A stretch of DNA of 64,000 nt, taken from positions 85,754,711-85,818,710 of the forward strand of contig CM039463.1 of NCBI GenBank assembly GCA_022414725.1, written 5' to 3'. The stretch comes from Microglena sp. YARC. Its lineage: Eukaryota; Chlorophyta; Chlorophyceae; Chlamydomonadales; Chlamydomonadaceae. How positions within the stretch are numbered: the stretch's first letter is position 1; every line of letters begins with the position of its first letter. Shown one piece after another: positions 5,872 through 60,453 of the stretch. The notes under the pieces are model-generated. The model was not told where the DNA came from, ran no database searches, and saw only the letters and a program-made list of their open reading frames with translations. A program made the translations under genes and the position numbers.

Positions 5872-6211
5872 TATCAGCATGTATAGCGGTGCTCTCACGC
5901 GTTTTATGACTTGGTGACTACTTATGTACTCCCATAGAACTATCGGCTCTCCTGAGCCAGCTTCCCGTGGGACTGAGTCATCTTGAGATGACTCAGTGGC
6001 AGCTTCCTGTCACCTACGTTCTGATCTCCTGTCTCATACGGTCTGATCTGTACCCTATTAGGTTCCTGTCTACCGTCTCCTTTCACCACGGGTGCCCCTT
6101 TATGGGTCTCCTGTGTCTGTAACGTTATCCTTGTCTCCGTGTATAGATTGGTGCGTCTGTTCCGCTGCTTTAATCTACTGTCCACTCTACCGGAGTGATT
6201 TCAAGCTGATA
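5872..6211 (+). repeat. 5' LTR
   Basis: 340 bp, TATCAGC...GCTGATA. Preceded by CGTGC. Differs from the 3' LTR by an A/G in CCTATTAGG and a G/A in CACCACGGG. Confidence 0.93.
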
Positions 6212-6248
6212 GGTCATTGGGCTCCTCATCACTACCACTGCTTTGATA

Positions 6249-12522: not shown

Positions 12523-12862
12523 TATCAGCATGTATAGCGGTGCTCTCACGCGTTTTATGACTTGGTGACTACTTATGTACTCCCATAGAACTATCGGCTC
12601 TCCTGAGCCAGCTTCCCGTGGGACTGAGTCATCTTGAGATGACTCAGTGGCAGCTTCCTGTCACCTACGTTCTGATCTCCTGTCTCATACGGTCTGATCT
12701 GTACCCTGTTAGGTTCCTGTCTACCGTCTCCTTTCACCACAGGTGCCCCTTTATGGGTCTCCTGTGTCTGTAACGTTATCCTTGTCTCCGTGTATAGATT
12801 GGTGCGTCTGTTCCGCTGCTTTAATCTACTGTCCACTCTACCGGAGTGATTTCAAGCTGATA
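12523..12862 (+). repeat. 3' LTR
   Basis: 340 bp, same termini as the 5' LTR, followed by CGTGC. Confidence 0.93.
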
Positions 12863-12867
12863 CGTGC

Positions 12868-15696: not shown

Positions 15697-16170
15697 AGGA
15701 CCTTCCCAAACAAAGCGCATAAAACTCAGGTCTGCATGCCAGGCCATGTCATGTCATCTGAGTTCATGTCTCACCTGCAGGAGCCAACAAAACACACCAA
15801 AACACTTTCCCAACAAAATGCATCAAACTCAGGTCTGCATGCCAGGCCATGTCATGTCATCTGAGTTCATGTCTCACCTGCAGGAGCCAACAAAACACAC
15901 CAAAACACTTTCCCAACAAAATGCATCAAACTCAGGTCTGCATGCCAGGCCATGTCATGTCATCTGAGTTCATGTCTCACCTGCAGGAGCCAACAAAACA
16001 CACCCAAACACTTTCCCAACAAAATGCATCAAACTCAGGTCTGCATGCCAGGCCATGTCATGTCATCTGAGCTCATGTGTCACCTGCAGGAGCAAAAACA
16101 ACGCACCAAAACGCTTCCCAAACAAAATGCATCAAACTCAGGTCTGCATTCTGGGATAGTTCACGCAAGC
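15697..16170 (+). repeat. 103-bp tandem array carrying the 5'UTR intron acceptor
   Basis: Four to five 103-bp units, each with CATCTGAGTTCATG...CACCTGCAG-GAGCC. The last degenerate relative is the true acceptor at 16511-16521 (CATCTGAGTTTATTACC...CACAG-GAGCC) in front of the ATG exon. Confidence 0.75.
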
Positions 16171-16220
16171 CGAGTTCATAGTCTTCTTGTAGGAGCCCCC
16201 TTATCCCTCACTCCCCAGAA

Positions 16221-16280
16221 CTTGATCCTGAACTTGGTTAAATAGCACAGCAATTTGGCTGCTCGCCGTCTTCATCAGCA
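16221..16280 (+). repeat. dispersed TTGAACTTGGTTAC-hairpin repeat
   Basis: CTGAACTTGGTTAAATAGC followed by CAGCAATTTGGCTGCTCGCC and GTCTTC. Member of the window-wide family described in findings. Confidence 0.6.
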
Positions 16281-16550
16281 CAAATAATTTTACCACGAAA
16301 ATGTTAAGACCTCCCCCCTCCCCCTCCTTTTTTCCCGCTTGACTTTCTGAACTATTCCCCCCCTGCCCTGCCCGTGACTGCTAAAGTGTTTTTCCGTGTC
16401 GCATGCGACACGTGCTTAGGACTTATCTTTTTCTTTTTTACTTGAACTTGAACTTGAACTTTGAACATGAACTTGAAGTTTTTTACTCCCCATCTGAGTT
16501 TATTACCTACCCACAGGAGCCTGTGAGGACACCTGATAAGCGCCAGCGAA

Positions 16551-60453
<43,903 letters not shown>

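Follow-up and report, generated by a model that had tools for sequence, protein, structure and literature searches.

Tandem copies of exon edges in the introns of a PhoD-like gene and of other genes of a green alga suggest intron growth by local duplication

Results

A gene of 28 exons with two PhoD_2 halves

The window, by which we refer to the entire analysed stretch of 64,000 nucleotides, is located on a 94.8-Mb contig of a 568-Mb green algal assembly and contains a gene of 28 exons on the forward strand (16517-60453), whose 27 introns are all of the GT-AG type and whose exons join into a single open frame of 1247 amino acids. The predicted protein harbors two copies of the PhoD_2 domain (PF19050; E 2.4e-144 in Pfam), with both halves being 55% identical across 540 aligned residues. 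Its best hit is the EukProt protein P0001 with 49%, and those of its top matches that carry a name are PhoD-like proteins of green algae. The exons of this gene, termed window gene in the following, have a median length of 130.5 bp and its introns one of 1565 bp, the latter amounting to a total of 40,159 bp. Upstream of the gene resides a Copia-like retroelement, whose direct terminal repeats (5872-6214 and 12523-12865, 99.1% identical over 343 bp) identify it as a recent insertion and whose interior is nearly devoid of local repeats (0.003 of windows). A polar alga is suggested by four pieces (L017, 4945-7434) that lie some 65 kb upstream of the window and match the ice-binding family PF11999.

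The gene and the arrays described below are found at the following positions:

16517-60453 (+): gene of 28 exons with two PhoD_2 halves (open frame, Pfam, half-versus-half alignment)
15703-16149 (+): 5' array, 103-bp unit x 4.3, copies with cacctgcaggagc; putative acceptor
16722-17393 (+): exon 1 donor array, functional donor 16782, 4 spanning copies
19435-20449 (+): exon 3 donor array, functional donor 19495, 3 spanning copies
20711-20955 (+): exon 4 donor array, functional donor 20740, 2 spanning copies, spacing 90 and 86
22109-22499 (+): exon 5 acceptor array, functional exon start 22440, 2 spanning copies
22882-23271 (+): exon 6 donor array, functional donor 22906, 4 spanning copies
24983-25569 (+): exon 7 donor array, functional donor 25037, 4 spanning copies
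27379-27840 (+): exon 8 acceptor array, functional exon start 27821, 4 spanning copies, spacing 103-114
31111-32454 (+): exon 11 acceptor array, functional exon start 32426, 10 spanning copies
32641-33534 (+): exon 12 acceptor array, functional exon start 33486, 7 spanning copies
36528-36873 (+): exon 14 acceptor array, functional exon start 36837, 2 spanning copies
36905-37494 (+): exon 14 donor array, functional donor 36927, 2 spanning copies
38167-39660 (+): exon 15 acceptor array, functional exon start 39601, 5 spanning copies
41892-42465 (+): exon 16 donor array, functional donor 41941, 4 spanning copies, spacing 124-127
42719-43131 (+): exon 17 donor array, functional donor 42775, 2 spanning copies
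43501-43865 (+): exon 18 acceptor array, functional exon start 43809, 2 spanning copies
47329-47986 (+): exon 20 donor array, functional donor 47389, 2 spanning copies
47988-49857 (+): exon 21 acceptor array, functional exon start 49816, 12 spanning copies, spacing 124-192
50316-51232 (+): exon 22 donor array, functional donor 50356, 5 spanning copies
52372-53147 (+): exon 23 acceptor array, functional exon start 53102, 4 spanning copies
53219-53695 (+): exon 23 donor array, functional donor 53279, 4 spanning copies, spacing 100-103
54181-55079 (+): exon 24 acceptor array, functional exon start 55026, 7 spanning copies, identity from 79% (farthest) to 98% (nearest)
55134-56156 (+): intron 24, last 18 bases equal to the last 18 of exon 24 (CCCCTCATATACCCTAAG), two decayed copies between; absent in half 1; candidate duplication-made intron
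56229-56672 (+): exon 25 donor array, functional donor 56289, 1 spanning copy (2 with longer query)
56837-57291 (+): exon 26 acceptor array, functional exon start 57234, 2 spanning copies
57386-57889 (+): exon 26 donor array, functional donor 57432, 2 spanning copies
57972-59115 (+): exon 27 acceptor array, functional exon start 59056, 4 spanning copies
59206-59756 (+): exon 27 donor array, functional donor 59266, 2 spanning copies
60213-60386 (+): exon 28 acceptor copy, functional exon start 60370, 1 spanning copy

Copies of splice junctions in their own introns

For each junction, up to 60 exonic and 40 intronic bases were searched with blastn (E<=1e-3) against the own intron, from which the junction's own 40 bases were excluded, and a match crossing the junction by 5 bases on each side was counted as a spanning copy. 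At least one such copy in direct orientation was found for 39 of the 54 junctions (20/27 donors and 19/27 acceptors), with a total of 115 copies residing in 25 of the 27 introns. In the same search, 15 junctions showed no spanning copy in their own intron, among them those on both sides of introns 5 (239 bp) and 21 (312 bp). Identity of the copies to the functional junction ranges from 70 to 98%, with a median of 88% (n=115). Longer queries (120 exonic and 60 intronic bases) returned 116 copies with an exonic part of 37 bases in the median and 110 at maximum. Adjacent copies lie 141 bp apart in the median (middle half 108-178, n=102), and by the range of 10-160 bp described for amphioxus the arrays have minisatellite-like unit lengths, with the spacings above 160 bp being in part a consequence of lost copies, which double the distance.

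Tandem self-copies at the junctions of this gene had been proposed in a sequence-only reading of the window, and our search confirms them at 39/54 junctions, with controls near zero. All 27 coding junctions named in this reading (13 acceptors and 14 donors) have at least one spanning copy at E<=1e-3, and the same was found for 12 further junctions (the acceptors of exons 4, 9, 10, 13, 16 and 20 and the donors of exons 2, 6, 8, 14, 19 and 24). The statement that nearly all junctions are affected holds for introns (25/27) but not for individual junctions, where the proportion is about three quarters (39/54). An array in the 5' UTR is also present as described (15703-16149, 103 bp x 4.3, 95%), with a putative role as acceptor. 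Wherever copies lie in the intron, the functional site is the end member of its array, as had been claimed, which is a consequence of the location of the copies inside the intron. The suggested graded decay was recovered in part: of the 15 arrays with at least three copies, matched bases drop with distance in 11 and the near copy is better than the far one in 12 (Wilcoxon p 0.026), but percent identity is nearly without gradient (mean rho -0.09), so the gradient along arrays is weak.

If spacers are included, the stretches from each junction to its farthest spanning copy cover 51% of the 40,159 intronic bp. The remaining half or so of the intron DNA lies outside of these arrays, with simple repeats and other minisatellites making up much of it. 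The earlier view that introns have grown by local duplication and not by insertion of outside DNA is thus supported insofar as duplication is a large source of length, but it does not extend to the exclusion of other sources. Among the intronic repeats noticed by eye that are not derived from junctions, blocks such as ACATGGCTCCAGCCTTTAAGGCTGCTAGCC occur repeatedly in intron 2, and introns 2, 3, 13 and 14 contain recurrent palindromes resembling ATATGATATCATAT (18495-19200 and elsewhere).

Whole-junction queries found no match on the minus strand (0/54) or in reversed introns (0/54), and in introns that are neither their own nor the partner intron of the other half they matched in 5 of 1368 cases. 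Exon edges of 40 bp outscored the best of 30 dinucleotide-shuffled versions of the intron at 23/27 donors and 19/27 acceptors, and on at least one side in 25/27 introns. When searched against the whole 64 kb, exon-edge 50-mers had 97 matches in their own intron and 25 in other introns, including partner introns of the other half, with zero matches outside of the gene and zero on the minus strand. Spanning copies come from the adjoining exon and rarely from elsewhere (5/1368). This property bears on two alternative explanations. Since the sequence is rich in repeats and the surrounding 264 kb contain 17,000 N, an assembly artefact resulting from collapsed or repeated read segments might be suspected, which we find scarcely credible in light of the correspondence of copies with the adjoining exon and rarely with another intron, the presence of arrays in genes on contigs C1, C2, C3 and C5, and the identity of 70-98% (median 88%, n=115), which argues against re-used reads. 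An origin of the introns as inserted mobile elements similar to introners would draw on the presence of such elements in the genome, as illustrated by the Copia-like element in the window. However, similar intron sequence at unrelated sites, the mark of introners, was encountered for junction sequences in just 5 of 1368 cross-intron tests within the window gene, the copies instead matching the adjacent exon, and we regard such an origin as highly improbable.

Enrichment of copies at junctions

Within exons, copies are concentrated at the edges, where 40-bp windows have one in a fraction of 0.70 (donor) and 0.59 (acceptor), and none was found for windows starting at least 100 bp (donor) or 70 bp (acceptor) inside. 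Similarly, a copy was detected for 2/14 exon-internal 50-mers located at least 60 bp from both edges, compared to own-intron copies for 37/54 edge 50-mers. Interior intron windows are often repeated too (0.61 of complexity-filtered windows, with both sides searched). In a one-sided comparison within introns at complexity-filtered points, copies were found for 27/44 junctions, with 14.3 expected (simulation p 2e-5). With points of simple sequence in the same introns included, the corresponding values are 27/44 versus 21.0 (p 0.03) and 24/34 versus 17.5 (p 0.008). Junctions thus exceed interior points and show an enrichment of arrays that is strong for complex sequence and modest overall. Repeat borders that are no commoner at exon edges than expected by chance, which the sequence-only reading had named as an observation that would speak against it, are therefore not what we found, although the excess that is strong with the complexity filter (p 2e-5) becomes modest with simple sequence (p 0.03). 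A strong coincidence of unit borders with exon edges was rejected, as the enrichment is real but modest once simple sequence is counted. Mismatches between copy and exon amount to 0.113, 0.106 and 0.158 at codon positions 1 to 3, a pattern to be expected under constraint on the exon and not on the copies.

The described enrichment could reflect a duplication process that is itself directed to junctions, perhaps through breaks or R-loops associated with transcription and splicing, where arrays would start at exon edges and older copies would be pushed inward. Besides the complexity-filtered excess (27/44 versus 14.3), this is consistent with the distribution of near copies, which are found in 0.71-0.79 of intron windows at 0-100 bp from the donor versus 0.14-0.42 beyond 400 bp, with a less steep fall from 0.54-0.70 to 0.21-0.55 on the acceptor side. 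Conversely, the excess is small when simple-sequence points are included (27 versus 21.0, p 0.03), non-genic flanks have local copies too (0.20 of windows), and detection is favoured at junctions, since constraint on the exon keeps the source recognisable while arrays in the interior decay. We thus consider targeting of junctions unlikely, albeit worth serious attention, and assume that universal duplication combined with selection against exon-internal copies accounts for much of the enrichment. Still, the excess of junctions over interior points need not follow from a uniform process and selection, and a bias towards junctions is possible.

Intact decoy splice sites

In 102 of 116 copies, the GT or AG is intact in the alignment, and the previous estimate of more than 50 decoy splice sites was thus borne out and even too low. 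Scored with weight matrices that were built leaving out the intron under test, 64/103 intact decoys (28/42 donor and 36/61 acceptor copies) equal or exceed their functional site. The splice core dinucleotides are 0.927 identical compared to 0.873 in the exon flanks (p 0.014) and, as judged by these values, the decoys are not purged. Since decoys are as strong as real sites, we infer that the cell must distinguish sites by their position, most simply by exon definition. In the window gene, the use of the exon-proximal site rests on the open frame and on conservation. At exon 16, the acceptor (41785-41797) reads GAAG and an upstream copy ending at 41649 contains ACAG; the better-looking acceptor is here the upstream copy, which is presumed to be unused.

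The intact sites might also be functional, either in the recursive or nested removal of long introns or as back-up sites, as their strength, the preservation of GT or AG in 102/116 copies and the AAG|GT copies in intron 24 and in the D/E intron of the paralog L030, which could act both as acceptor and donor, would allow. Against such function stand the 15/54 junctions without a spanning copy and the core dinucleotides, which are barely better kept than their flanks, as expected of young copies, and we consider it improbable. An interpretation of the copies as alternative or mutually exclusive exons, which would be in line with the coding-like sequence next to their splice site, appears more remote still, since they hold a single exon edge with a median of 37 exonic bp and the reading frame would be preserved in just 42 of 102 cases if an intact decoy were spliced.

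Age of the arrays and origin of intron 24

A comparison between the two halves of the gene has revealed nine intron positions that are exactly shared (2/18, 3/19, 5/20, 7/21, 8/22, 9/23, 11/25, 13/26 and 15/27). Introns 4, 6, 10, 12 and 14 are found in half 1 only and intron 24 in half 2 only, with introns 1, 16 and 17 having no aligned counterpart for this comparison. Six of the nine shared-position pairs contain no similar sequence (E 1e-5, low-complexity filter on), the pairs 8/22 and 13/26 share only stretches of 21-44 bp, and the pair 11/25 shares 100 bp at 88% and 184 bp at 70%. Since introns at shared positions are mostly without common sequence, the arrays would mostly be younger than the positions. 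The block in intron 11 (33300-33405), which is 88% identical over 100 bp to the array in intron 25 (56750-57230), resembles exon 26 of the other half and not its own exon 12, and an exchange between both halves is a possible cause.

The end of intron 24 repeats the tail of exon 24 in an unbroken match of 18 bases that terminates with AAG before G, and its interior contains copies of the exon tail with 92.6% (27 bp) and 81.8% identity (22 bp, E 0.009). In the other 26 introns of the window gene, the comparison of exon and intron tail gave at most 11/20 matches, with runs of up to 5. An intron at the same position in L030 (D/E) matches its exon tail at 17/20 positions and contains 13 exon-tail matches along its whole length, 9 of which have AAGGTGA and the last of which is the acceptor itself. 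Half 1 has no intron at this site and reads on through, as does the paralog L029, which continues for about 12 codons before a possible intron. Since intron 24 and L030 D/E are each bounded on either side by a copy of their exon tail with AAG|GT, they seem to have been created by tandem duplication. The reading of intron 24 as a candidate gain rests on this repeat signature and on the absence of the intron in half 1 and L029, although, judged by position alone, loss in the latter two is possible as well. Because both introns occupy one place, they may descend from one old gain with later turnover of the array or from two parallel gains. L030 C/D, whose acceptor carries a 9-base repeat of the exon tail and which contains 10 donor copies with a unit of mostly 60 bp, offers weaker evidence for a birth by duplication; by protein alignment and intron list, the window gene has no intron at this place. 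A tandem-duplication origin of all introns was rejected, as its signature is found in 1/27 introns of the window gene and 0/21 chaperonin introns.

Junction copies in other genes of the genome

Outside of the window gene, 33 of 60 junctions pooled from a DUF1997-like gene, chaperonins and L030 have spanning copies. Arrays are thus not special to one gene, as had been implied, and the uniqueness of the window gene is ruled out. The neighbouring DUF1997-like gene on the minus strand, which has copies at 4/6 junctions, was selected among 20 predicted pieces run through Pfam since two adjacent predicted exons matched the family, both below the Pfam cut-off (E 0.0028 and 0.00017), and for its outer introns lengths of 2000 and 2500 bp were assumed. 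Genes of TCP-1 chaperonins (PF00118) have copies at 20/42 junctions (12/28 and 8/14) and in 15/21 introns, with junctions being our own splice choices from profile matches. This sample comprises 8 loci from the listed PF00118 matches, with 31 exon pairs, 21 of which were accepted at a splice score of at least 9, a limit set after the first scores were seen. Three pairs were dropped because no good splice pair was found (L021 303/313, L022 282/278 and L023 300/301) and seven due to profile gaps; L024 yielded none, and one match in L026 (profile 322-374), a repeat of the previous exon, was omitted from the exon list. For 28 chaperonin junctions, 10 matches on the minus strand were obtained, one of them spanning, and the specificity outside of the window gene is thus a little lower. 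L030, chosen as PhoD paralog of the window gene, has copies at 9/12 junctions and in 5/6 introns.

In the window gene, L030 and the chaperonins together, introns with copies are longer (median 1279 bp, n=45) than those without (749 bp, n=9; p 0.0004). Junction arrays span 27% of the intron DNA in the first 14 chaperonin introns, where length and copy number show no significant correlation (p 0.40). Copies are denser in the window gene than in the chaperonin sample (39/54 versus 20/42, Fisher p 0.02).

Discussion

Copies of exon edges with their splice sites are present in most introns of the window gene and in many of other sampled genes, and this suggests that introns grow, and in few places arise, by local tandem duplication. 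Taking the observed copies, their strand, their origin in their own intron, the intact decoys, their presence in other genes and the signature of intron 24 together, we consider it quite probable that local tandem duplication is frequent, that copies straddling a junction persist owing to continued use of the exon-proximal site, and that the process sometimes makes introns. The genome would undergo frequent local tandem duplications with copies mostly 100-180 bp apart, which selection would usually remove if they occurred inside exons. A duplicate straddling a splice junction would instead place its extra copy harmlessly in the intron, provided that the site adjacent to the exon is still spliced, and repeated events would generate arrays of the exon edge with its donor or acceptor, a longer intron and intact decoys. 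If the duplicated exonic segment contained AG|GT, its first copy could act as donor and its last as acceptor, thereby turning the array into a new intron, as proposed for intron 24 and L030 D/E. It is the neutrality of the copies, the exon-proximal splicing rule and the order of events that we infer in this account. A bolder version, which we put forward tentatively and with the balance tilting somewhat against it, would have tandem duplication of exon edges as the main genome-wide route of intron birth and lengthening in this algal lineage, with new introns starting as AG|GT exon-tail arrays, whose first copy is the donor and last the acceptor, further copies being added at junctions thereafter, and a strict exon-proximal choice making thousands of full-strength decoys harmless.

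The phenomenon itself has precedents, and the assertion that no gene of this kind had been described is contradicted by the 'mirages' of amphioxus. In Adh3, globins, troponin C and PGBD5, these tandem repeats extend over exon-intron boundaries, with minisatellite-like units of 10-160 bp, many of which retain splice signals (PMC3087553, PMC3902484). Adh3 data and RT-PCR of globins suggest that splicing is undisturbed, and a gain of introns from mirages was proposed (PMC3087553). The algal arrays are similar as direct tandem repeats across junctions (39/54) that keep their splice signals (102/116). In contrast to mirages, which, as far as these texts go, concern some junctions of few cephalochordate genes and are accompanied by RT-PCR, they are found at 39/54 junctions of one gene and 33/60 elsewhere and are known from DNA alone. 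Intron gain by tandem duplication is described as well supported (PMC3443670; potato RdRp, PMC4974935), and a corresponding model by Rogers is cited in PMC3087553. Intron 24 and L030 D/E resemble such cases, as described there, in that a duplicated exon segment with AG|GT supplies both splice sites, but differ in that the segment seems to keep expanding into an array that fills the intron (4 copies in intron 24 and 14 in L030 D/E, including the functional donor). In segmentally duplicated human genes, introns are elongated by internal tandem repeats located at exon-intron boundaries, which can also give rise to new introns (PMC2812944). This likewise reflects minisatellite expansion at boundaries, although with units of about 30 bp on average and in recently duplicated genes, compared to a spacing of about 140 bp in the alga, where conserved housekeeping genes are also affected. 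A literature search that covered subscription papers thinly and did not extend to the original mirage papers found no description of such arrays in algae among the titles and abstracts listed, and within the same limited coverage no report of an extent to most junctions of a gene and to many genes with arrays that are themselves introns. The kind is thus known, whereas its extent in the genome and the link from the exon edge to the birth and growth of introns did not appear among the papers listed in this search.

How introns originate and why they become longer has been asked for a long time, with recent cases amenable to study being scarce, and this genome displays a simple mutational process that is legible at about half of the junctions sampled outside of the window gene (33/60), in stages that begin with one additional copy and end with an intron consisting entirely of an array of its exon tail. 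The genome also constitutes a natural experiment on the choice that the spliceosome makes between adjacent sites that are equally strong. Finally, junction arrays are a likely source of annotation error, as illustrated by P0001. This protein is the product of L030, with exact blocks of up to 106 residues, which fit exon-proximal splicing at five of six introns and misfit at one. At a donor array at L030 2905-3734, which has a unit of mostly 60 bp and 10 spanning copies, five listed ones being 95-97% identical, P0001 joins the exons differently and is without a stretch like AALVLDTR of the window protein, and it thus appears to be mis-spliced at one such array.
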